A stretch of 64,000 nucleotides of DNA from Planctomycetota bacterium (lineage in GTDB: Bacteria > Planctomycetota > Planctomycetia > Pirellulales > PLA5). Position 1 is the first letter of the stretch; every line of letters starts with the position of its first letter. Shown here one piece after another: positions 131-60,148 of this stretch. Both the position numbers and the translations under genes were made by a program. The notes beneath the pieces were generated by a model. The model saw nothing but the letters and a program-made list of their open reading frames with translations, made no database searches and had not been told where the DNA came from. Where the stretch lies: contig QEVJ01000022.1 of the NCBI GenBank assembly GCA_003576845.1, positions 1-64,000 of the forward strand, written 5' to 3'.

Positions 131-3100
131 TCAGTTGCCGCTCGCCGCGACGGCCTCGCCGAGCGACGCCCGATGATTGCGGAGGAATTCGGGGAAGTTG
201 GCCTTGGCCAGGTCTTGTTTGGTCTGGAACCGGATCTTGAGTTGGTCGTAATGCCGGGGCGAGGTGTCGAAATCGCGGCCCGAGCCGAGTTCGAGCACCT
301 GTCCGTAGGCGAAGCGGTTTTTGGGACCGGTGAGGACGAGCTCGACGGCGTGCGGTTTTTTGGTGAGGATGCTCGCCCAGGGGTCTTTCTGGCCGGGGAC
401 GAACACGTGTACCAACTGTTGGTTGTTCCAGAGGAACTGGCCCTCGGGCGCGACTTCGGCGAGCATCTCGCAGAGCTCTTCGAGGACTTCCGGTTCCCAC
501 TCGACGCGCTTGCCGGGTGGGAAACCCTTGCGGGCGAAGTGCCATTTTTGCCCGAGCACTTTCCAGGGCATGATGTCGTCGGGCCGGGTCGCCGCGCGGC
601 CCAAGTAGCTCTCGAAACCCTTGACGGCCCGTTCGAGGAACTGCCAGAACTCGGGCTTGTCGATCTCGGCCCAACTGTGGGCGTGGATCTCGATCTCCTG
701 GAACGGACCCCGCTGGTTCTTGCACTTTACCCGCGGCTCGTTTCCGTAGACGGGCAAGTCGGGCAGCTCGTTGTATGGCCGCAGCGCGAGGTCGGCGATG
801 AGTTTCTCGCGGCTGAACGTATTCTTGGCCGTGCGGAACTTGAGCTTGAGAATCCACGACTCGCCGGTGATGGCATGGAAGAACCAGCCGTCGCTTTTCT
901 TTTCGGCGGCGATTTCGACGACGCTCCGCTCGTTCCAATGGGTGTCGCTGAACTTGCCGAGCGCGTGAATGCGGTCGACGACTTCGGCGAGGATCTTGCC
1001 TTCCCAACGGACCGGTTGCCCGCGGCGATCGACGGCGTCCTGCGTGTGCCAGCGGCGTCCGTCGACTTCCCACGGCATCTTGGCATCGCGGCCGACTTGG
1101 CTGATGTCGAGATCGCCCGCGCGGCGCTCTTCGGCGGCGGCGAAGTCGTGCTCGCGGCGCTCGAGGTAGGGACCGGCGGCGAGGACGGGGGCGAGGGCCT
1201 CGCCGGTGTGGCTGCGGAGTCGGGGGTCGGGATTCGGGATTCGGGATTCGGGGAGTTGCAGATCGGGCGACTTCTTATTCCGCGCGGGTTTCTTGGCGGC
1301 GCCGTTCTTTGCGGGCGGCTTCCATTGTTTGCTGTGGGAGACGATTTGTTCTGGCGTGCCGGTGGCTACGACCAGGCCACCGTCGTCACCGGCTTCGGGA
1401 CCGATTTCGATGATCCAGTCGGCCGTTTTGAGGACGTCGAGATTGTGCTCGATCACCACGACCGTGTTGCCCAAGTCGACGAGCCGATTGAGCACGTCGA
1501 GCAGCTTGGCGAGGTCTTCGAAATGCAAGCCGGTCGTCGGCTCGTCGAGCAGGTAGAGCGTCCGGCCCGTATCCGGCCGGGCGAGCTCCGCGGCGAGCTT
1601 GACGCGCTGGGCCTCGCCGCCGGAGAGCGTCGGCGCGGGTTGGCCGAGCTTCACGTAGTCGAGTCCCACGTCGCAGAGCAATTGCAGCGTGCTGCGAATC
1701 CGCGGGATGTGCTCGAACAGCTTCACCGCGCGGCCGCACGACATGTCGAGCACGTCGGCGATCGATTGCCCGTGAAACCGCACGGCGAGCGTCTCTTCGT
1801 TGTACCGCCGGCCGCGGCAGGCTTCGCATTCGACCCACACGTCCGGCAGGAAGTGCATTTCGATCTTCTTCTGGCCGTTGCCTTCGCAGGCCTCGCAGCG
1901 CCCGCCGGGGACGTTGAAGCTGAACCGCCGCGACGTGAAGCCGCGGACCTTGGCGTCGGGAAGTTGGGAGAACAACATCCGAATCAACTCGAACACGCCG
2001 GTGTACGTCGCCGGGTTCGACGACGGCGAGTTGCCGAGCGGCTGCTGATCGACGCGAATCACCTTGTTGATGTGCTCGATGCCGCGGATCGCGTCGTGCG
2101 CTCCGGGCGTGGTTGCGGCGCGATGCAAGGTGCGCGCGAGCGCGTTGTACAGCACGTCTTCGATGAGCGAGCTCTTGCCGGAACCGGAAACGCCCGCGAC
2201 GGCGGTAAGCGTGCCCAGCGGGATCGACACGGTGACGTTGCGGAGGTTGTTGTGGCGGGCGCCAACGATGGATAGGGACTGGGGGCTGGGGACTGGGGGC
2301 TGGCGGGGGTCGGGATTCGGGATTCGGGATTCGGGGGCGGACGCCTTCGTGCGCGGCGAACGCTTCGCGTTCTTGGCGCTTGCCTGCGGCGAGGCACTTG
2401 TAGCACCGCGACGGTTCTCCGGAATGCCGATGGCTTTCGTGCCCGAAATGTAGGGCCCAGTCACGGAGCCTTGTTGATTTGCCACAGCGCACGGCGGGCC
2501 GCTGGCGACGATTTCGCCGCCGAACTCGCCGGCTTTGGGACCGAAGTCCAACAGCGCGTCGGCCGCGTTGATGACTTCGCGATCGTGCTCGACGACCAGC
2601 AGCGTATTGCCCAAGTCGCGGAGTTTTCTCATCGCGTCGAGCAGCCGGCGGTTGTCGCGCGGGTGCAGGCCGATCGTCGGCTCGTCGAGCACGTACAACA
2701 CGCCGCAAAGTCCGCTGCCGACTTGCGCGGCGAGCCGAATCCGCTGCGCTTCGCCGCCGGAAAGCGTCGGGGTCGGGCGGCCGAGCGTGAGATACTCAAG
2801 TCCCACGTCGACCAGAAACGTCACGCGGTTGGTCACTTCGCGGAGGACCTCGCCGGCGATCTTCCGCTCGCGCGGATTGAGCTTCCACGATTTGACCTCG
2901 TCGAGCAGCTTGCCGAGCGGCAGGCGACACGTTTCGTCGATCGTCCGGCTGCGGAAGCGGACGGCGGCCGAATCGTCGCGCAGCCGACTTCCGCCGCACA
3001 TCGAGCATTCGACCTCGCCGACGAGATGTTCGAGCCGCGTCCGCAACGTCGGCGAGAGCCGCGACGCCTCTTCGAGCGCGGGATACAAACCTTTGTACTG

Positions 3101-6100
3101 AAAACGAAACGCGGGCCGCTCGCCGTCACTCGCCGGCTTGCCCGCCGGGTACACGCCGATCCAATCTTCGCCCAGGCCGTGCATGATGATCCGGCGTTGC
3201 CGCGCGGAAAGCTGATCGAACGGGCGATCGAGCGGAATGCCGGCGTGGGCCGCGAGCGCCCGCACCAGCGCGTCGGCGAGCGGCTGGCCCATTTGCGGCC
3301 AGATGGCGATTGCGCCTTGGGCGAGCGTGAGCTTCGGGCCGTTGAGCAGGGCCGCCGGATTCGCGCCGGTTTGCGTGCCCAATCCTTGGCACGACTCGCA
3401 CCAGCCGATCGAGCTGTTGAACGAGAAATGATGCGGCGTGAGCGGCTCGAAACTGCGCCCGCAACGGTCGCAGGCGTAATGCTGGCTGTGTACCTTCACT
3501 TGCCAGCGCGGCTCCGGCACGTCGTCCTGCGCGAACGCGAGCTTGCATACGCCCTTGCCGACGGCGAGGGCGTTTTCGACGCTGCCGGCGATCCGAGACC
3601 GCCCGCCGCGGTCGATGACGATCCGGTCGATCACCACTTCCACGTCGTGCTTGCGGCGGCGGTCAATCGCCGGCGGATTGTCGAGCGAATGGGTCTGGCC
3701 GTCGACGCGGACGCGGGCGTATCCGTCGGCCCGCAGGTCTTCCCAGAGCGTTTCGTACTTCTCGCCGACTTGAATGTCGACGGGCGCGCAGAGCAGCGCC
3801 TTGGTTCCCGCCGGCTCGGCGACGATCTTGTCGATGATCTCGTCGGCCGACTGCGTGCCGATGGCGATGTCGCAATCGGGGCAGAACGGTTCGCCCAGCC
3901 GCGCGAACAAGATCCGGAGATAGTCGTACACCTCGGTCACGGTGCCCACCGTGGACCGCGGCGTGTGGCCCATGTTCTTTTGCTCGATCGCGATGGCCGG
4001 CGAAAGGCCCTCGATGTGATCGAGCTGTGGCTTCTGCATCTGACCGACGAATTGCCGAGCGTAGGACGAGAGACTTTCGACGTAGCGCCGCTGGCCTTCG
4101 GCGTAGATCGTGTCCATCGCCAGCGAGGTTTTGCCCGAACCGCTCATGCCGCAGCAGACGGTCATCGCGTCGCGAGGGATCGTGACGTCGATGCTTTTGA
4201 GGTTGTGCTGGCGGGCGCCGCGGACGGTGAGCAGGGGTCGGGGGACGGGGGTCAGGGGTCGGGGAGCGGATTCGGGATTCGGGATTCGGGATTCGGGGGC
4301 GCCGCTGCGCGGGTTCTTTGCCGCTGCACCTTGATTGAACACCCTTCGGAGCGACTGACCTGTGTGCGACTTTTCGATTCTCGCGACCTCTTCGGGAGTG
4401 CCCGTGGCGATGATTCTTCCGCCGCCCTCGCCGCCTTCGGGCCCGATGTCGATGATCCAGTCGGCCGTCTTGATGACGTCGAGATTGTGCTCGACGACGA
4501 GGACCGTGTTGCCGGCGTCGACGAAGTTGTGCAGCACCTTGAGCAACATCTCGATGTCGGCAAAGTGCAAGCCCGTTGTCGGCTCGTCGAGCAGGTACAG
4601 CGTCTTGCCGGTGCTGCGCTTGACGAGTTCGCGGGCGAGCTTGACGCGCTGGGCCTCGCCGCCGGAGAGCGTCGGCGAGGGCTGGCCGAGCTTAATGTAA
4701 TCGAGTCCGACATCGTGCAGCGTTTGCAGCTTGTGCCGCACGGACGGCACGTTCTCGAAATGCTCCAATGCCTGCTGCACGTCCATTTCCAGCACGTCGG
4801 CGATCGACTTGCCCTTGAAATGGACTTGCAGCGTTTCGCGGTTGAAGCGTTTTCCTTCGCACACGGGGCAGGTGACCCAGACGTCGGCCAGAAAATCCAT
4901 TTCGAGCTTGTTCGAGCCGTTGCCTTCGCACGCCTCGCAGCGGCCGCCGCTGACGTTGAAGCTGAAGCGGCCCGGCTTGTAGCCGCGCTGCTTCGATTGC
5001 GGAAGCTGCACGTACAGGTCGCGGATGTCGTCGAGCAGTTTGATGTACGTGGCGGGATTCGACCGCGGCGTGCGGCCGATCGGCGATTGGTCGATGGCGA
5101 TCAGCTTATCGAGATGCTGGATGCCTTCGATTCGATCGAATCGGCCGGGCTGTCCTTCGCCGCGGTTGAGGTCGCGGTGCAACGCCTCGACGAGGATATC
5201 ATTGACGAGCGAGCTCTTGCCAGAACCCGAGACGCCGGTGACGCAGACGAAACAGCCGAGCGGAATCTCGGCGTCGACGTTCTTGAGATTGTTGTGGCGC
5301 GCGCCGAGGACCTTGAGCCATTTGCCGTTCTGCGGCCGGCGGGTTTGAGGAATCGCGATTTTCCGTTCGCCGGAGAGATACTTGGCCGTAAGACTCTTCG
5401 TCGCATGGCGAACGTCGTCGATCGACCCGTGGGCGACGACTTCACCGCCGCGGACGCCGGGACCGGGACCGAAGTCGACGAGGTGATCGGCCGCCCGCAT
5501 CGTGTCTTCGTCGTGCTCGACGACGACGACGGTGTTGCCCAGGTCGCGAAGTTGCCGCAGCGTGGCGAGCAGCCGGTCGTTGTCGCGCGGGTGCAGGCCG
5601 ATCGACGGTTCGTCGAGAATGTAGAGCACGCCGACGAGCCCGCAACCGATCTGTCCGGCGAGGCGAATCCGTTGCGATTCGCCGCCGGAGAGCGTCGGCG
5701 CCGTGCGATCGAGCGTCAGGTATTCGAGGCCCACGTTGATGAGGAACCCCAGTCGGCCGCGAATTTCCTTGAGCGCCTCTTCGGCGATCTTCGCCCGCGT
5801 CGCGTCGAATTCGATCTCGGCGAAGAAGTTGGCGGCGTCGCTGATCGCCATGCCGCAGACTTCCGGCAGCGTGCGCGACGGGCGGTCGGCGAACGATGTG
5901 TGGCGCGTGGTCAAGCGGACGCTGCGCGCTTGGGCGTTGAGCCGCTCGCCTTTGCACTCCGGGCACTTCACCACGCTCATGTACTTTTCGAGCTGGCGGC
6001 GCTGCATCTTGCTGCCGGTGCTGCCGTGTTTCTCCATCAACTCGGGGACGAGGCCCTCGAACTTGCCACCCCACATCATGGGCGAGCTGCCCTTGCGCCA

Positions 6101-7363
6101 CGTGAAGGTGATGTGCTCGTCGCCCGTGCCCCAAAGCCAGATGTCGCGGAGCTTCGGGTCGAGATCGCGCCACGGCGTGTCGAGGAGCGTTCCTTCGGCG
6201 AGGCCGAGCTTGCGCTCCATCGTCTCGGCGACGCCGTCGTAGATGTGGCGCTTCCAGCGGCCCATGTCGTCCCACGGACCGAGCAACTCGAACGCGCCTT
6301 TGCGCATCGAGAGCTTATCGTTTGGCACCAAGAGCGCGGGATCGAAGCTGTAAAACTCGCCTAGCCCGTCGCACTTTTGGCACATGCCCTGAGGACTGTT
6401 AAAGCTGAACAACTGCGGACTCGGCGGCTCGAACGACAGGCCGCAGTGCGTGCAGGCGTAGTGGGCGGAAAGGGCGAGGTCGGGGGTCAGGGGTCGGGGG
6501 TCAGGGGTCGGGGAAGGATTCGGGATTCGGGATTCGGGATTCGCGGCGGCTCGCTTCGCTCGCCGGGGCGATGCTGGCGCGGCTTGAGTACGTGGTGCGG
6601 CGTCCGATTCGACGGCCACGATCAAGTTGCCGCTGCCGAGTTTAAGCGCGAGTTCGACGGCTTCGGCGAGTCTTCCTCGCGCGTCGCGGCCCGAGACGAG
6701 GCGGTCGACCACGACCTCGATGTTGTGCCGCATCTGACGGTCGAGTTGCAGATTGTCCGTAAGCTGCACGACGTTGCCGTCGACGCGCGCGCGGACGAAA
6801 CCTTGCTTGAGCAGGTCCTCGAACAGATCGCGATACTCGCCTTTTTGGCCGCGAATGAGCGGGGCGAGGATCGAGTAGCGCGTGCCCTCGGGCAGGTCGG
6901 CGACGCGGGCGATGATCTGATCGGCAGTCTGGGCGGTAATCTCGCGGCCGCAACTTGGACAGTGCCCCGTTCCCGTGCGGGCATAGAGCACGCGGAGGTA
7001 ATCGTAAATCTCCGTGATCGTTCCGACGGTCGACCGCGGGTTCTGGCCGGAAGTCTTTTGTGAGATCGAAATCGACGGACTCAGGCCGGAAATCAAGTCG
7101 ACGTCCGGCTTCGGCATCTGGCCCAAGAACTGCCGGGCGAAGCTGGAAAGGCTTTCGACGTATCGCCGCTGGCCCTCGGCATAGAGCGTGTCGAAGGCGA
7201 GCGAGCTCTTGCCCGAGCCGGACACGCCGGTCAGGCAAATGAGCTTGTTGCGGGGCAAGGAAACGTCGACGGAGCGCAGATTGTGCTCCCGCGCCCCTTT
7301 CACAACGATATCGGCGGCCGGCATGGGCGTGGGGTCGTCCGTGGGTGGCAACTTTGCGGGCAA
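131..7363 (-). CDS. uvrA: Tandem-duplicated UvrA excinuclease ATPase (2410 aa)
   Basis: DNA damage-recognition ATPase of nucleotide excision repair, in a double-length form. Two complete UvrA units are fused (about residues 15-1000 and 1045-2010). Each has two ABC cassettes, giving four Walker A loops (near residues 46, 708, 1070 and 1722), four LSGGE signatures and four Walker B motifs such as YILDEP. All look intact. Cysteine pairs of the zinc modules (CTHCG, CPECKG, CEACEGNG and their counterparts) occur in both units. Normal UvrA is about 940 aa; fused double UvrA proteins are known in planctomycetes. Residues about 2095-2400 are an extra C-terminal region holding two copies of one unknown domain. 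Linkers near residues 274, 1022, 1675 and 2037 are encoded by G-rich genomic repeats and read PESRIPNP. The start was chosen because the first UvrA motif begins about 20 residues later. Confidence 0.97.
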   Translation of the reverse strand: MPAKLPPTDDPTPMPAADIVVKGAREHNLRSVDVSLPRNKLICLTGVSGSGKSSLAFDTLYAEGQRRYVESLSSFARQFLGQMPKPDVDLISGLSPSISISQKTSGQNPRSTVGTITEIYDYLRVLYARTGTGHCPSCGREITAQTADQIIARVADLPEGTRYSILAPLIRGQKGEYRDLFEDLLKQGFVRARVDGNVVQLTDNLQLDRQMRHNIEVVVDRLVSGRDARGRLAEAVELALKLGSGNLIVAVESDAAPRTQAAPASPRRAKRAAANPESRIPNPSPTPDPRPLTPDLALSAHYACTHCGLSFEPPSPQLFSFNSPQGMCQKCDGLGEFYSFDPALLVPNDKLSMRKGAFELLGPWDDMGRWKRHIYDGVAETMERKLGLAEGTLLDTPWRDLDPKLRDIWLWGTGDEHITFTWRKGSSPMMWGGKFEGLVPELMEKHGSTGSKMQRRQLEKYMSVVKCPECKGERLNAQARSVRLTTRHTSFADRPSRTLPEVCGMAISDAANFFAEIEFDATRAKIAEEALKEIRGRLGFLINVGLEYLTLDRTAPTLSGGESQRIRLAGQIGCGLVGVLYILDEPSIGLHPRDNDRLLATLRQLRDLGNTVVVVEHDEDTMRAADHLVDFGPGPGVRGGEVVAHGSIDDVRHATKSLTAKYLSGERKIAIPQTRRPQNGKWLKVLGARHNNLKNVDAEIPLGCFVCVTGVSGSGKSSLVNDILVEALHRDLNRGEGQPGRFDRIEGIQHLDKLIAIDQSPIGRTPRSNPATYIKLLDDIRDLYVQLPQSKQRGYKPGRFSFNVSGGRCEACEGNGSNKLEMDFLADVWVTCPVCEGKRFNRETLQVHFKGKSIADVLEMDVQQALEHFENVPSVRHKLQTLHDVGLDYIKLGQPSPTLSGGEAQRVKLARELVKRSTGKTLYLLDEPTTGLHFADIEMLLKVLHNFVDAGNTVLVVEHNLDVIKTADWIIDIGPEGGEGGGRIIATGTPEEVARIEKSHTGQSLRRVFNQGAAAKNPRSGAPESRIPNPESAPRPLTPVPRPLLTVRGARQHNLKSIDVTIPRDAMTVCCGMSGSGKTSLAMDTIYAEGQRRYVESLSSYARQFVGQMQKPQLDHIEGLSPAIAIEQKNMGHTPRSTVGTVTEVYDYLRILFARLGEPFCPDCDIAIGTQSADEIIDKIVAEPAGTKALLCAPVDIQVGEKYETLWEDLRADGYARVRVDGQTHSLDNPPAIDRRRKHDVEVVIDRIVIDRGGRSRIAGSVENALAVGKGVCKLAFAQDDVPEPRWQVKVHSQHYACDRCGRSFEPLTPHHFSFNSSIGWCESCQGLGTQTGANPAALLNGPKLTLAQGAIAIWPQMGQPLADALVRALAAHAGIPLDRPFDQLSARQRRIIMHGLGEDWIGVYPAGKPASDGERPAFRFQYKGLYPALEEASRLSPTLRTRLEHLVGEVECSMCGGSRLRDDSAAVRFRSRTIDETCRLPLGKLLDEVKSWKLNPRERKIAGEVLREVTNRVTFLVDVGLEYLTLGRPTPTLSGGEAQRIRLAAQVGSGLCGVLYVLDEPTIGLHPRDNRRLLDAMRKLRDLGNTLLVVEHDREVINAADALLDFGPKAGEFGGEIVASGPPCAVANQQGSVTGPYISGTKAIGIPENRRGATSASPQASAKNAKRSPRTKASAPESRIPNPDPRQPPVPSPQSLSIVGARHNNLRNVTVSIPLGTLTAVAGVSGSGKSSLIEDVLYNALARTLHRAATTPGAHDAIRGIEHINKVIRVDQQPLGNSPSSNPATYTGVFELIRMLFSQLPDAKVRGFTSRRFSFNVPGGRCEACEGNGQKKIEMHFLPDVWVECEACRGRRYNEETLAVRFHGQSIADVLDMSCGRAVKLFEHIPRIRSTLQLLCDVGLDYVKLGQPAPTLSGGEAQRVKLAAELARPDTGRTLYLLDEPTTGLHFEDLAKLLDVLNRLVDLGNTVVVIEHNLDVLKTADWIIEIGPEAGDDGGLVVATGTPEQIVSHSKQWKPPAKNGAAKKPARNKKSPDLQLPESRIPNPDPRLRSHTGEALAPVLAAGPYLERREHDFAAAEERRAGDLDISQVGRDAKMPWEVDGRRWHTQDAVDRRGQPVRWEGKILAEVVDRIHALGKFSDTHWNERSVVEIAAEKKSDGWFFHAITGESWILKLKFRTAKNTFSREKLIADLALRPYNELPDLPVYGNEPRVKCKNQRGPFQEIEIHAHSWAEIDKPEFWQFLERAVKGFESYLGRAATRPDDIMPWKVLGQKWHFARKGFPPGKRVEWEPEVLEELCEMLAEVAPEGQFLWNNQQLVHVFVPGQKDPWASILTKKPHAVELVLTGPKNRFAYGQVLELGSGRDFDTSPRHYDQLKIRFQTKQDLAKANFPEFLRNHRASLGEAVAASGN
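1221..1253. repeat. GGGATTC G-rich repeat inside uvrA (copy 1)
   Basis: Tandem GGGATTC heptamers preceded by CGGGGGTC. Four G-runs of at least three, spaced by four bases, fit a G-quadruplex pattern on the plus strand. In uvrA (minus strand) it encodes PESRIPNPDPR at about residues 2037-2048. Confidence 0.9.
2275..2340. repeat. Composite G-rich repeat inside uvrA (copy 2)
   Basis: GGGACTGGGGGCT units followed by CGGGGGTC and three GGGATTC heptamers. It is translated in uvrA as a Pro/Ser-rich linker just before the fourth ABC cassette (about residues 1675-1697). Confidence 0.9.
4234..4299. repeat. Composite G-rich repeat inside uvrA (copy 3)
   Basis: GGGGTCGGGGGAC and GGGGTCAGGGGTC units followed by GGGATTC heptamers. 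It encodes the linker between the two UvrA units (about residues 1022-1044). Confidence 0.9.
6481..6543. repeat. Composite G-rich repeat inside uvrA (copy 4)
   Basis: GGGGGTCAGGGGTC units followed by GGGATTC heptamers. It encodes NPESRIPNPSPTPDPRPLTP (about residues 274-295), just before the zinc-module motif CTHCG. Confidence 0.9.
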
Positions 7364-49605: not shown

Positions 49606-50388
49606 ATGCGCACCGTTCGCTTGATCGTCGACGAACCCGGCGATGGCGCGTGGAACATGGCCGTCGACGACGTGCTGCTCGCTGCCGCGGCCGAACGCGG
49701 CGAGGCCACGCTACGGTTCTACGGTTGGTCGCCGGCGACGCTCTCGCTGGGCTATTTCCAGGCGTTCGACGCGCGGGAGCAGCACCCGCCGAGCAGACAC
49801 TGCCCGGTCGTTCGCCGGGCCAGCGGCGGCGGGGCAATCGTGCACGACCGCGAGCTGACCTATTCGCTTGCCCTGCCGTACGAGCATTGGCGCGAGCACG
49901 GCCGAACCGGCCTTTATTCGTTGGTGCACCGATCGCTCTGCGAAGCACTCGTGGCCGTCGGGATCGAGCACGCACGCATGATCGGCGACGACAACGCCAA
50001 GCTGAACGAACGCAAGCCGGCCGAGCCGCCGTTTCTCTGCTTCGAGCGGCGGACGGAATTCGATGTCGTCCTGTCGCCGCCCGGGACCGACGCCCCACAA
50101 GCAGCGAAGATCGCCGGCAGCGCCCAACGCAGCTTGCATCGGGCCGTGTTGCAGCACGGCAGCATCCTGCTGGCTCGTTCGGAGTTCGCGCCGTCGCTGC
50201 CGGGCATCTCCGAAATCGCAGGCACTCCGGCCGACGGTTCGCGGCTGGTTGCGGCGTGGTTGCCCCGGCTCGCCGCACAACTCGACGCGGCATGGTCGCC
50301 CGACGAAGGTTTCGCCGATTCCGCAAAAGAAGCGATTCTGGCCGCGGCGGAGAAGTTCCGGTCCGACGATTGGCTTCGTCGGCGATAA
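49606..50388 (+). CDS. Lipoate--protein ligase family protein
   Basis: Member of the biotin/lipoate A/B ligase fold family, 260 aa. Motifs are NMAVDDVLL, the substrate-loop VVRRASGGGAIVHDRELTYS and the lysine region AAKIAGSAQRSLHRAVLQHG. It could transfer or attach lipoate or octanoate to E2 or GcvH domains; LplA, LipM and LipL types cannot be separated here. The ATG encoding MRTVRLIVDEPG was chosen, since the frame upstream crosses repeat DNA. Confidence 0.9.
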   Translation: MRTVRLIVDEPGDGAWNMAVDDVLLAAAAERGEATLRFYGWSPATLSLGYFQAFDAREQHPPSRHCPVVRRASGGGAIVHDRELTYSLALPYEHWREHGRTGLYSLVHRSLCEALVAVGIEHARMIGDDNAKLNERKPAEPPFLCFERRTEFDVVLSPPGTDAPQAAKIAGSAQRSLHRAVLQHGSILLARSEFAPSLPGISEIAGTPADGSRLVAAWLPRLAAQLDAAWSPDEGFADSAKEAILAAAEKFRSDDWLRRR

Positions 50389-50552
50389 CGGGCTTCACCG
50401 TGCTATTCACCAGAGGCGTTTCGTCAGTGGCTTTTCGTCAGAGGTATTTCCCCGCATTCGCGCGCCGATTACATTGGAATAGAAGGGTTCGATCGCGTTT
50501 CGAGGACGGCGTCGAGGCCACAGCGGCCCGCGCGTCGACGGCGGAGAAGGCC

Positions 50553-51188
50553 ATGAAAACCAAGCTCAAAGTGCTCAACAGCAAAAGCGCCGGCAAGGAA
50601 CTGCCGGTCGCCGTGGATCAGTTCTTGATCGGCCGCGACGCGTCGTGCCAGCTTCGGCCAGGGAGCGACGCCATCGCGATGAAGCACTGCCAACTCACCC
50701 GCCGCGAAGGCGGATTCTGGGCCAAAGACCTCGGCAGCGACACCGGCACGTTCGTTAACGGCCAGAAGGTCGCCGGCGAGGTCGAGCTCAAGCCGGGCGA
50801 CAAGCTCCGCGTCGGCCCGCTCGAATTCGAGGTCCAGATCGAATATGAAATCGGCGGCCAGCGGGCGGAGAAGGTCAAAGACGTTCGCGATGCCGCCGCC
50901 CGGGTGGTCAAAAAGGCCGACAAGGAATTCGACATCGACAGCCTGCTCTCCGGCGCCGACGACGAAGAAGACGAGCAGCCCCGCAGCAAGCAGTTCGACA
51001 TCAACGAGATCACGTCCGCCTTGGAAGCCGAAAAGGAAGCCGAACGGGCGGCCCGCGAAGCCGCGGAACTCAAGAAATCCGGCGGCAAGAAATTCGGCAA
51101 ACTCCCGAAGAAAGAAGAAGAGCACGGCCCCGCCAAGGACACCCGCGACGCGGCCAACGAGATGCTGCGGAAGATGTTCAAGAAATAG
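50553..51188 (+). CDS. FHA domain protein
   Basis: Forkhead-associated phosphothreonine-binding protein of 211 aa. The FHA core occupies residues about 20-95: FLIGRDASCQLRPGSDAIAM, then KHCQL, DLGSDTGTFVNGQ and LKPGDKLRVGPLEFEV. The remaining 115 residues are highly charged and probably helical or disordered, rich in Glu, Lys and Ala. GGAGAAGG precedes the ATG. It could link Ser/Thr kinase signalling to another component; no kinase is in the window. Confidence 0.9.
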   Translation: MKTKLKVLNSKSAGKELPVAVDQFLIGRDASCQLRPGSDAIAMKHCQLTRREGGFWAKDLGSDTGTFVNGQKVAGEVELKPGDKLRVGPLEFEVQIEYEIGGQRAEKVKDVRDAAARVVKKADKEFDIDSLLSGADDEEDEQPRSKQFDINEITSALEAEKEAERAAREAAELKKSGGKKFGKLPKKEEEHGPAKDTRDAANEMLRKMFKK

Positions 51189-55462: not shown

Positions 55463-56740
55463 ATGCGAACGATGGCGATCGGCGTGGTATGTCCGGAGTG
55501 CGGCTACGCGTTCTCGGTGCGCGACGAGTACGCCGGGAAGCGCGGAAAATGCCCGCAATGTGGCGGGACTTTCCGCGCTCAAGCCAGCGATCGGGACGAG
55601 ATGCCCGTCATCGCCACGAACGGCTCGCGAAATGGCTCGCACGGCGGGCGGAACGGGACGGCGGCCCGTCCGTCGTTTGCCGGCGTGGCGGTTTCGGCTC
55701 CTGCCGCAGCGGCCGCAACTTCCGTCGCGGGAAGTTATGCCGCGCGGCGGCGTTCCGGCGGGATGCCGACGTGGGGTTGGATCGCGCTCGGCGCGATGCT
55801 CCTGGCAGCCGGTGGTTCCATTGCCGGCGCGTGGATGCTCTCGCCCGACCCGGCCGCGATCAAGAAGACCGTTAAGGAGCGAATCGCCAAGGCGGACAAG
55901 GCCCTCAAGAAGGTCGAAAACGCGGTTCTCAACTCGCTCGACGACGCGGAAGACAAACTGCCCGACGTCGAGAAACAAATCGACGAATTCGCCCGGCCGA
56001 AGACGCTTGAGGAGGATGTAATTCCCGGCGTGGTCAAGGTTCTGAGCGTGCAAGGCGGACTGACGCGCGGCCACGGTACCGGCTGGCTGATCAACGACCA
56101 GCATTGGATCGCGACGAATCACCACGTGGTCGAGGGTTGCGAATCGCTCTACATCCAGACGGCCGACGGCAAGAAGCACGACATCGAAGGCGTCATCGCC
56201 GACAAGAAAGAGTGGGACCTCGCGATTATCAAGCCGACGAAGTTGATCGAAGGGGGCAAGCCGCTGAAGATCGCGCCGAACGACGGCTCTTATTTGCCCA
56301 ACGCCGGCGACAAAGTGTGGGCGGTCGGCAACCCCGCCACACACTTATTCACCGTTTCCCGCGGGATCATTTCCCGCCGCGTTTCGCAGCGGCAACTGAT
56401 CAGCGAGGCGAATCAGCTCGACACGTCGTTTTACGCCGATCCGGAGCGGGACATCATGTGGATTCAGCACGACGCCCGCATCTTTCCCGGCAATAGCGGC
56501 GGTCCGCTCTTGGACGAGCATTTTCGCGTGATCGGCGTCAACACGGCCGGAATCATGGTAATGCTCGAGCGGGAGATCGAGCGGGCCAAAGAAGAGGCGC
56601 GCGCCAAGCGCGACCGCCGCGGGCCCAAGGTAACGCCCACGCTCGCGTTGGCGAGCAACAGCATGTACATCCTGGAACTCATGGCCCAAAACGCCGACGG
56701 GAAGGTGAAGCCGTTCTCGTCGATTAGCGAGGGGCATTGA
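55463..56740 (+). CDS. Zinc-ribbon membrane-anchored trypsin-like protease 1
   Basis: Serine protease of 425 aa. A zinc ribbon (C10, C13, C30, C33) opens the protein. One TM segment (about 103-125) and a helical stalk (AIKKTVKERIAKADKALKKV) follow, then an S1/HtrA-like domain. The triad is visible: H221 in TNHHVV, D252 in EWDLAIIKP and S345 in GNSGGPLL. No PDZ follows. The ribbon should be cytosolic and the protease outside. It is the first of three tandem paralogues. Confidence 0.93.
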   Translation: MRTMAIGVVCPECGYAFSVRDEYAGKRGKCPQCGGTFRAQASDRDEMPVIATNGSRNGSHGGRNGTAARPSFAGVAVSAPAAAAATSVAGSYAARRRSGGMPTWGWIALGAMLLAAGGSIAGAWMLSPDPAAIKKTVKERIAKADKALKKVENAVLNSLDDAEDKLPDVEKQIDEFARPKTLEEDVIPGVVKVLSVQGGLTRGHGTGWLINDQHWIATNHHVVEGCESLYIQTADGKKHDIEGVIADKKEWDLAIIKPTKLIEGGKPLKIAPNDGSYLPNAGDKVWAVGNPATHLFTVSRGIISRRVSQRQLISEANQLDTSFYADPERDIMWIQHDARIFPGNSGGPLLDEHFRVIGVNTAGIMVMLEREIERAKEEARAKRDRRGPKVTPTLALASNSMYILELMAQNADGKVKPFSSISEGH

Positions 56741-56829: not shown

Positions 56830-58095
56830 ATGTCCATTCGCGTAACCTGTCCGCAGTGCCAACACGCCTTCGCCGTCCGCGACGAATACGCGGGCAAGCG
56901 CGGCAAATGTCCGCAGTGCGGCGGCATCTTCGTCGCGGAAGCCGGCGCGCCCGCGGCGGAACAGATTCCCGTGCTGGCCGTCGGCGGCGCGAACGGGGCT
57001 TCGCGCGGCCGCCGTAACGGCGTCGCGGTCGAATCTTTGCCGGCAGTTCACGTGGCGGCGACTTCGTCGGCGCGGACGGATGCCGGCGCTGCGACGTCGG
57101 TCGGCGCGTACGCCGCGCGGCGGCGTTCCGGTGGAATGCCCATGTGGGGTTGGATCGCGCTCGGCGTCATGCTCCTGGCGGCGGGCGGCTCCGTTGCCGG
57201 CGCGTGGATGCTCTCTCCCGACCCCGCGGCGATCAAGAAGACCGTCAAGGAGCGAACCGCCAAAGCCGACAAGGCCCTCAAGAAAGTCGAAAACGCGGTT
57301 CTCAACTCGCTCGACGACGCGGAAGACAAGCTGCCCGACGTCGAGAAGCAGATCGACGAATTCGCCCGGCCGAAGACGCTCGACGAGGACGTAATTCCCG
57401 GCGTCGTGAAGGTGTTGAACGTGCAGGGCGGCGGTCCTCGCGGCAGCGGCACGGGCTGGATCTTCAACGATCAGCATTGGATCGCCACGAACCATCACGT
57501 CGTCGCGGGCTGCGAATCGCTCTACGTCCAAACCGCCGACGGCAAAAAGCACGACATCGAAGGCGTCATCGCCGACAAGAAAGAATGGGACTTGGCGATT
57601 CTCAAGCCCACAAAGCTCATTCCCGGAGCCAAGGTGCTCAAGATCGCGCCCAACGACGGCTCGTATCTGCCGAACGCGGGCGACAAGGTGTGGGCGATCG
57701 GCAACCCGGCTTCGCACATGTTCACGGCGACGCACGGAATCATCACCCGCCGCGTTTCGCAGCGACAACTGATCAGCGAAGCGAGCCAGACCGACACCGC
57801 GTTCTATGCCGATCCCGAGCGCGACATCATGTGGATCGAGCACGACGCCCGAATATTTCCGGGCAACAGCGGCGGCCCGCTCCTGGACGAGCATTTTCGC
57901 GTGATCGGCGTGAACACGCTTCTGGAAATGTTGCCTTTGGAGCGGTCGATCGAAAAGGCCAAGAAAGAACGCCAGCCCGTGAGGCTTTCACCGACATTCG
58001 GCCTGGCGAGCAACAGCATGTACATCCTCGAACTGATCGCCAATCACTCCGACGGGAAGGTCAAGCCGTTCTCGTCGATCAGCGACGGCGATTAA
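56830..58095 (+). CDS. Zinc-ribbon membrane-anchored trypsin-like protease 2
   Basis: Close paralogue of the preceding gene, 421 aa, 89 bases downstream on the same strand. The same order holds: zinc ribbon (C7, C10, C27, C30), TM segment, stalk almost identical to protease 1, and protease domain with H223, D254 and S347. The linker after the ribbon differs most. The chosen ATG begins the ribbon (MSIRVTCPQC). It is a recent duplication judged by near-identical stalk and ARIFPGNSGGPLLDEHFRVI. Confidence 0.93.
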   Translation: MSIRVTCPQCQHAFAVRDEYAGKRGKCPQCGGIFVAEAGAPAAEQIPVLAVGGANGASRGRRNGVAVESLPAVHVAATSSARTDAGAATSVGAYAARRRSGGMPMWGWIALGVMLLAAGGSVAGAWMLSPDPAAIKKTVKERTAKADKALKKVENAVLNSLDDAEDKLPDVEKQIDEFARPKTLDEDVIPGVVKVLNVQGGGPRGSGTGWIFNDQHWIATNHHVVAGCESLYVQTADGKKHDIEGVIADKKEWDLAILKPTKLIPGAKVLKIAPNDGSYLPNAGDKVWAIGNPASHMFTATHGIITRRVSQRQLISEASQTDTAFYADPERDIMWIEHDARIFPGNSGGPLLDEHFRVIGVNTLLEMLPLERSIEKAKKERQPVRLSPTFGLASNSMYILELIANHSDGKVKPFSSISDGD

Positions 58096-58246: not shown

Positions 58247-60148
58247 ATGGCCATCAGCGTCACCTGCCCCGAGTGCGAGCATTCGTTTTCCGTCCGCGAC
58301 GAGTATGCCGGAAAACGCGGGAAGTGTCCCAAGTGCGGCGGCGTATTTCGCGCGGAACCGGCCGAGCCGGCGATCGGCGTTGGCATGCCGGCGGTGCTGG
58401 CCGCGCGGAGCGGCGTTTCGCTCGGCAAATCGGGATCGACCAACGGCGGCTTCGCCCTCGACACGGCCGCCCCAGCCCCGGTTCCCGCTCCGGCCGGAAA
58501 GAAAGCCGGCGGCGGCAAGAAGCGAAAGGCGGCCCACGGCGGCGGAACGCCCATGCCCCTCGGCGCTTGGATCGCGCTCGCCGTGATCGCGCTGGCCGGG
58601 TTCTCGGGCGGCGGGTTCATCTACATGTCGCGCGGCAGCGAGGCCGTCAAAATCGCCGAGAACGTCGACGACGGCAGCGAAGCCAAGAAGATCGAACAAG
58701 ACCTGCGCGATCGGATCAAGGAACTCGAAGGCGAAATCGCCGGGCTCAAGACGAGCCTCGCCAATGCCGAAAAGTCGATCGGCACGAAGCCCAAGGAAAA
58801 GACCCCGCTCGGCGAAATCGAAAAACGGATCATTCCCGGCGTCGTCAAGATCATTCCTTACATCAACGATCAACCGCAGCAAACGACGGCGACGGGCTTC
58901 TTCGTGAACGACAAACAACTCGTCGCCACGAGCTATCAGGCATGCGAGGGCGCGACCAAGCTCGCTATCAAGCTACCCACCGGTACCGAGTATGAAATCG
59001 AAGGCATCGTCGCCGCCGACGAGAAGCAAGGCATTGTCATCCTCAAGCCCAAGTCCGAAATGCCGGGCGTGCAGCCGCTCAAGTTCGCCGAAAGCCCGAC
59101 GCTCAGCCGCGGCGACACGGTCTACGCCATCGGCAACCCGGGCAAGCAGGAATTCACCACCTCGCGCGGCACGATCACGCGGGTCATTACCCAAGACCAG
59201 TACGTCACCGAAAAGCCGATGTTCGACGTCGAATTCACCCGCGGCTCGTCCGTGAGCACGTCGTTCATCGAGCACGACGCCCGGATTTTTCCCGGCGACT
59301 ACGGCGGACCGCTGTTGAACGAGAACCTCGACGTGATCGGCATGAACCAGTTGCTGGTGACGATGGTTATGAACGACGGGCGGACGATCGTACAGACGTT
59401 CGGTGCAGCCGAGGAGATCAAGCACATCAAGGCGCTCGCCGACAAGGCGACCGCCACGATCATTCCCTATCCGCCCGCGAGGCCGAAGAAATCCCCAAGC
59501 GGCAAGCCCGAAGAAAAGAAGGGCGAAGAAGAGAAGCCGAAAGACGGCGAAGCCAAGCCCGGCGAAGACCCCGACGCTCCCAAGGACGGCGAGGGCGACG
59601 ACGACGAGGGCAAGCCGGCCGCTGGCGATCTAGCGGGTAAGATCGACGCGCTGCACAAGGAATGCGACGCCTTCGGTTGGAAGCCGAAGTCGAAAGAGCA
59701 GTTTGCAAAGCTCTGCGAGGTTTCGGGCCGCATCACCGACGCGTTGCTGCTCGACGACGGAGACGACGAAAAGGAAGCCGCAGGCGAAGCGGTCAAGAAA
59801 GTCGTGACCAGCCTCGGCGAGGCCAAATGGGAAGCCGGCGACATCGAGCTGGTCAACACGTTCGCCGCCGCGGCCAAGCCGACCGAGGACGCCGGCATTT
59901 GCTTCGTGGGCAAAGTCCTGGGCGCCAGCAATTTTAACGGATCGCCGTCGTTGATCTTTCACATCGAAGGCACGGAATCCGCCGCCATCGTGCCCTCGGA
60001 AAAAGTCAATGAAGTTCCCAAGGACACGCGCGGCATCGTCCTCGGCAAATTCGCCTCGGAGAGCAGACCGGGCCTTAAGAACCCTGACGGCGGCTCGGAG
60101 TACTCGGGAATCATCGTGCAGAGCAAGATGCTCGTTCCGCTCGAATAA
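58247..60148 (+). CDS. Pseudoprotease paralogue with extra C-terminal domain
   Basis: Third paralogue, 633 aa. The zinc ribbon (C7, C10, C27, C30), TM segment (about 106-127) and helical stalk are kept. All three catalytic positions are replaced: His by Q231 (ATSYQACEG against ATNHHVVEG), Asp by G262 (KQGIVILKP) and Ser by Y352 (FPGDYGGPLL against FPGNSGGPLL). The fold around them is conserved. After a Lys/Glu/Pro-rich linker (about 430-490), a further domain of about 140 residues is unique to this copy (DALHKECDAFGWKPKSKEQF onward). It probably binds rather than cuts, and might regulate its neighbours. Confidence 0.9.
   Translation: MAISVTCPECEHSFSVRDEYAGKRGKCPKCGGVFRAEPAEPAIGVGMPAVLAARSGVSLGKSGSTNGGFALDTAAPAPVPAPAGKKAGGGKKRKAAHGGGTPMPLGAWIALAVIALAGFSGGGFIYMSRGSEAVKIAENVDDGSEAKKIEQDLRDRIKELEGEIAGLKTSLANAEKSIGTKPKEKTPLGEIEKRIIPGVVKIIPYINDQPQQTTATGFFVNDKQLVATSYQACEGATKLAIKLPTGTEYEIEGIVAADEKQGIVILKPKSEMPGVQPLKFAESPTLSRGDTVYAIGNPGKQEFTTSRGTITRVITQDQYVTEKPMFDVEFTRGSSVSTSFIEHDARIFPGDYGGPLLNENLDVIGMNQLLVTMVMNDGRTIVQTFGAAEEIKHIKALADKATATIIPYPPARPKKSPSGKPEEKKGEEEKPKDGEAKPGEDPDAPKDGEGDDDEGKPAAGDLAGKIDALHKECDAFGWKPKSKEQFAKLCEVSGRITDALLLDDGDDEKEAAGEAVKKVVTSLGEAKWEAGDIELVNTFAAAAKPTEDAGICFVGKVLGASNFNGSPSLIFHIEGTESAAIVPSEKVNEVPKDTRGIVLGKFASESRPGLKNPDGGSEYSGIIVQSKMLVPLE

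Follow-up and report, generated by a model that had tools for sequence, protein, structure and literature searches.

A predicted HtrA-like pseudoprotease encoded in tandem with two triad-bearing paralogues in Pirellulales

Introduction

Inactive serine protease homologues are a known kind of prokaryotic protein, with 42 of 966 counted as inactive in 91 genomes (PMC2605481). Bacterial pseudoproteases that work with active partners have seldom been documented, and the main studied case that was found is MamO/MamE. MamO promotes the proteolysis carried out by MamE without any catalysis of its own, and the C-terminal domain of MamO is required for this; in magnetotactic bacteria, pseudoproteases have evolved more than once (PMC4794232). 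In Planctomycetes, the literature search found no work on duplicated trypsin-like serine protease genes.

The window analysed here is the whole stretch of 64,000 nucleotides at the start of contig QEVJ01000022.1, which belongs to a Planctomycetota bacterium of the order Pirellulales. It contains three tandem genes on the plus strand, A, B and C, which encode one set of membrane-anchored trypsin-like proteases. The kind of protein represented by C is already known; the arrangement is the new part.

Comparison with known protease families

The trio resembles MamO/MamE in the HtrA-type domain, the loss of catalysis after duplication or redundancy, the presence of an active relative as a partner (proposed for C) and a dead copy that carries a C-terminal domain (PMC4794232). 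MamO differs in having Thr at the nucleophile position with His and Asp present (H116, D149), a C-terminal domain that is a TauE-like transporter and a metal-binding protease domain (PMC4794232), whereas the trio features an uncharacterised C-terminal domain, an N-terminal Zn-ribbon and two active copies lacking the tail. The score of C against the MamO model NF040961 was 18.5 bits with a cut-off of 800, which places C outside that family; C has a single transmembrane (TM) helix near the N-terminus and a C-terminal domain with no meaningful Pfam match.

Proteases of the MarP type (NF033740) likewise have a membrane anchor followed by a trypsin-like domain, but the scores of the trio (B 74 bits, A 66 and C a weak 33) lie far under the 250-bit cut-off, and the Zn-ribbon of the trio and the C-terminal domain of C set it apart. 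The protease domain is homologous to that of HtrA/DegP/DegQ (TIGR02037; C 66 bits, A 96 bits), though these scores are under the curated cut-off of 416 bits, and the Pfam search found no match to a PDZ domain after the protease domain in A, B or C. The full-length Pirellulales proteases composed of Zn-ribbon, TM helix, trypsin-like domain and C-terminal domain (for example loci L032, L033 and L037) have the domain order of C and a homologous C-terminal domain; they differ from C by a single family copy per locus, an intact H-D-S triad and the lack of a charged linker. Protein C belongs to this family by its domain order and by its nesting in the midpoint-rooted tree, and such single-copy relatives represent the state before the trio.

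Organisation of the trio

The features of the locus are collected in Table 1. Pfam Trypsin_2 is matched by A, B and C alike, and each protein begins with an MJ0042-like Zn-ribbon with four Cys and has a single TM helix, as judged by hydropathy. The Zn-ribbon would lie inside and the protease domain outside the membrane. The gene for C starts with ATG at 58247 and encodes 633 amino acids, with the stop at 60148. Scans for promoters and terminators gave matches at the level of shuffled sequence and carry no information on an operon.

Table 1. Features of the trio in the window
Feature	Position	Strand	Description
Protein A	55472..56740	+	MJ0042-type Zn-ribbon, TM helix, helical stalk, trypsin-like domain; H218/D249/S342 intact; no C-terminal domain
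Protein B	56830..58095	+	Architecture as A; H223/D254/S347 intact; no C-terminal domain
Protein C	58247..60148	+	Zn-ribbon, TM helix, helical stalk, dead trypsin-like domain, charged linker, C-terminal domain
A TM-stalk tract	55736..56035	+	91% DNA identity to B 57109-57408; probable gene conversion
C Zn-ribbon, residues 1-37	58247..58357	+	Cys 7, 10, 27 and 30 all retained
C predicted TM helix, residues 103-127	58553..58627	+	Hydropathy
C helical stalk, residues 128-190	58628..58816	+	27% identity to A stalk; helicity judged from sequence alone
C dead trypsin-like (HtrA-type) domain, residues 191-393	58817..59425	+	Pfam Trypsin_2 E 1.8e-20; PDB HtrA matches
C Q231, catalytic His position	58937..58939	+	CAG; R in orthologue
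C G262, catalytic Asp position	59030..59032	+	GGC; orthologue retains D
C Y352, catalytic Ser position (PGDYGGP)	59300..59302	+	TAC; orthologue likewise Y
C post-Ser segment, residues 371-393	59357..59425	+	23/23 identical between two species; 13% identity to A
C charged linker, residues 412-460	59480..59626	+	10 Lys, 9 Glu, 7 Asp and 8 Pro in 49; confined to C and its orthologue
C C-terminal domain	59627..60145	+	Homologous to domain of active full-length relatives; no Pfam or PDB match

The 300-base tracts encoding the TM helix and stalk of A and B are closer to each other within the genome (91% DNA identity) than to their orthologues (about 69-77%), and the stalks of A and B in the second species, genome G001, demonstrate a similar pattern. 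This indicates probable repeated gene conversion between the A and B stalks, with C left out. The stalk of C is so distant from that of A, and lies outside the conversion, that it lends no support to an assembly of the trio by way of a shared stalk and speaks against a direct partnership of C with A and B.

Loss of the catalytic triad

The initial annotation had described the replacement of all three catalytic residues of C (H to Q231, D to G262, S to Y352) beside two tandem paralogues with an intact triad. Re-alignment of A, B and C reproduced the same replacements, and the H-D-S residues are present in both A and B; the motifs HDARIFPG, GGPLL and YAIGNP, which flank the lost residues, are still found in C. 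No alternative alignment restored the triad: when a profile of the two C proteins is aligned to HtrA/DegQ chains of solved structure, Q231, G262 and Y352 fall opposite the catalytic residues. The one orthologue of C that was found reads R/D/Y at the three positions.

An error of sequencing or assembly was considered and rejected, as replacing Ser (AGC) by Tyr (TAC) requires changes at two bases and the syntenic orthologue of the second species carries TAC as well.

The loss is less complete in the orthologue (R/D/Y) than in the window (Q/G/Y). The only change common to both C proteins is that of Ser to Tyr, the His position being different (Q vs R). Since Tyr occupies the Ser position in both, the simplest reading of the sequences is that this replacement is older than the split of the two species; the Asp appears to have been lost later, in the lineage of the window only.

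Outside the trio, the H-D-S triad is kept in 51 of the 53 homologues included in the tree of 59. The two exceptions are independent: one reads H-D-G (genome G041) and the other Q-D-N (genome G161). The former (L019, 253-2619) has Gly at the Ser position (GGNGGGP) and retains His and Asp, and a relative in genome G069 is intact. The latter, a pseudoprotease (L085, 1899-3185), sits on a long branch, has no C-terminal domain and is the sole family gene on the stretch read. Like C, it has lost His and Ser, in a separate event within the same protein family, and it differs in being a solo gene without the domain. With no active family neighbour on that stretch, it indicates that the pairing of a pseudoprotease with an active copy is not obligatory. 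A family gene of genome G188 (L068) has an in-frame TAG between its two halves; there are intact relatives in the genus.

Distribution and phylogeny

Genome G001 (contig JAJDEG010000215.1, MAG OFTM264) carries A, B and C in unchanged order. They are followed by counterparts of the convergent sigma-70 gene (91% identical) and of the SH3-like protein gene (62%) that come after the trio in the window. A and B of this genome have H-D-S, and its C has R-D-Y. As to the survey of other Pirellulales proposed in the initial annotation, the trio is no general trait of the order: it is conserved and syntenic in a second species of the same bacterial family, and occurs in only 2 of the 396 genomes of the order, a set in which the family is represented by two genomes only. 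Outside the family, no trio was found among these 396 genomes. Among the named genomes searched for further relatives, C was found only on the OFTM264 contig.

In the tree of homologues, rooted at midpoint, proteins A, B and C of both species are monophyletic (support 100/99), and the two C proteins pair with the same support (100/99). The trio is nested in a clade of 17 rows with full-length active members (support 96/88 under the midpoint root). The stem of C is long (0.92 vs 0.37 for A+B).

The C-terminal domain of C had been regarded as unique to it and newly gained, which proved incorrect. The domain occurs in 32 homologues, counted as complete proteins, from other bacterial families, and 31 of them have an intact triad. 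Nine homologues of other bacterial families, none of them a C sequence, gave a profile that matches C (E 3e-16) and the C orthologue (E 4e-26) and matches neither A nor B; an hhalign comparison of the domain of C with that of active full-length homologues gave 99.4%. The profile search detected the domain in 19 of 97 genomes, at the sites of protease-family proteins; across the genomes covered by that search, no protein outside this protease family was found to carry this uncharacterised domain. Sequence searches of Pfam and PDB gave no meaningful match. The trio forms one clade nested among full-length active proteins, which argues for loss of the domain from A and B rather than its gain by C. 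The most economical history suggested by the sequences is that the gene was duplicated in this bacterial family, A and B lost the C-terminal domain, and C kept the domain and lost catalysis. The charged linker, by contrast with the domain, is an acquisition of C, as had been proposed; it is present only in C and its orthologue.

A tandem pair of a different composition was observed in genome G171 (L101). Its first copy (3498-4976) has the Zn-ribbon, the TM helix and the C-terminal domain and lacks the protease domain; the second (4980-6470) has the protease and C-terminal domains and lacks the Zn-ribbon. That a copy lacking the protease domain immediately precedes one that has it is in favour of a function of the non-catalytic modules separable from cutting.

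Selection on protein C

Between the two species, dN and dS are 0.31 and 0.76 for C (dN/dS about 0.4), 0.16 and 1.05 for A, and 0.18 and 1.02 for B. The dead domain of C has dN 0.19 and dS 0.73 (dN/dS 0.26), and the C-terminal domain, with dN 0.50, dS 0.93 and 41% identity between the species, ranks with the most weakly conserved regions of the protein. The His and Asp loops are identical at 18 of 31 positions in C vs 55 of 62 in A+B (p 0.001), and residues 371-393 at 23 of 23 in C vs 51 of 72 in A+B (p 0.003); both p values are only indicative, as the limits of the segments were chosen after viewing the alignment and the constraint figures come from a single species pair. Residues 341-393 of C are identical at 51 of 53 positions. 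By homology to HtrA, residues 371-393 come after the GNSGGP loop and presumably lie near the substrate pocket.

These comparisons show a shift of constraint in C, from the relaxed catalytic loops to an invariant segment after the dead Ser. It is well supported that C evolves under purifying selection and is not a decaying gene. Judged from its sequence, C qualifies as a pseudoprotease, with the protease fold retained, the catalytic residues replaced and the whole maintained by selection.

Possible role of protein C

A binding or regulatory role beside the active copies was the proposal of the initial annotation. The shifted constraint fits this proposal; a regulatory tie to A and B is something that we infer. 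The reading that we tentatively prefer, at somewhat short of even confidence and by analogy with MamO, is that C is a selected, catalytically dead, membrane-anchored HtrA-like pseudoprotease which may serve as a non-cutting partner, recruiting substrate for A and B or switching them.

Under this preferred reading, the ancestor would have been a single-copy active protein with a Zn-ribbon, a TM helix, a trypsin-like domain and a C-terminal domain, and its gene would have been duplicated within the bacterial family of the window. On this history A and B kept catalysis and dropped the C-terminal domain. C kept the domain, and its nucleophile changed from Ser to Tyr ahead of the divergence of the two species; its His and Asp loops relaxed, with Asp lost in the window lineage alone, and the conserved charged linker was acquired. 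C might hold a peptide or a protein through the face around the dead Ser and, at the outer membrane surface of the cell's anchoring membrane, recruit substrate for A and B or switch them, much as MamO does for MamE. Against this reading count the diverged stalk of C, the weak conservation of the C-terminal domain that C retained, the solo pseudoprotease of G161 and the sample of two species behind the constraint figures. The trio offers an independent planctomycete case, with the order of events partly readable (Ser lost ahead of the divergence, Asp later).

A rather doubtful possibility is that C works as a binding protein without catalysis, in a role of its own and with no tie to A and B, where the dead domain holds a ligand, the Zn-ribbon or the C-terminal domain relays a signal across the membrane and the tandem position is a relic of duplication. 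The diverged stalk of C outside the A/B gene conversion, the solo pseudoprotease of G161 and the G171 copy that has the Zn-ribbon, TM helix and C-terminal domain with no protease domain all agree with it, but both species have kept the three genes side by side in one and the same order, and the G171 copy directly precedes an active one.

Slightly less probable, and unlikely on the whole, is a version where catalysis and the C-terminal domain are partitioned: A and B cut, and C, with the domain and a new binding face on the dead active site, is an obligatory non-catalytic subunit, so that the trio does the job of one protein elsewhere.

It is improbable that C is a substrate trap or an inhibitor, reducing proteolysis by tying up either substrates or the A/B assembly. 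Competitive inhibition is one way in which pseudoenzymes are known to work (PMC10211241), and the fold motifs and the post-Ser region are retained and strongly conserved in C; however, Tyr at the Ser position and the relaxed His and Asp loops may obstruct the usual pocket for substrate, and the conserved segment of C is unlike that of A and B, which gives no reason to expect shared substrates.

Functionless drift of a duplicate on its way out is still harder to accept: the faster evolution of C, the stepwise loss of the triad positions and the low identity of the C-terminal domain would suit it, but a reading frame of more than 630 codons is open in both species, the dN/dS ratio and the near-identity of residues 341-393 oppose it, and the 23-residue segment is invariant in C and not common to A and B.

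Activity of C through migrated or alternative residues is scarcely credible, as the nucleophile is absent from the Ser position in both species, Gly replaces Asp in the window and the catalytic loops are relaxed, against which stands only a His that, in the orthologue alone, immediately precedes the position of the lost catalytic His.

Other observations in the window

Two further genes were noted by eye. The minus strand at 131-7363 holds an open frame of 2410 amino acids, in which two UvrA-like proteins appear to be fused head to tail, followed by an extra C-terminal stretch. The C-terminal part of the product of the gene at 49650-51188 on the plus strand (start coordinate provisional) includes an FHA-like domain and an acidic tail.
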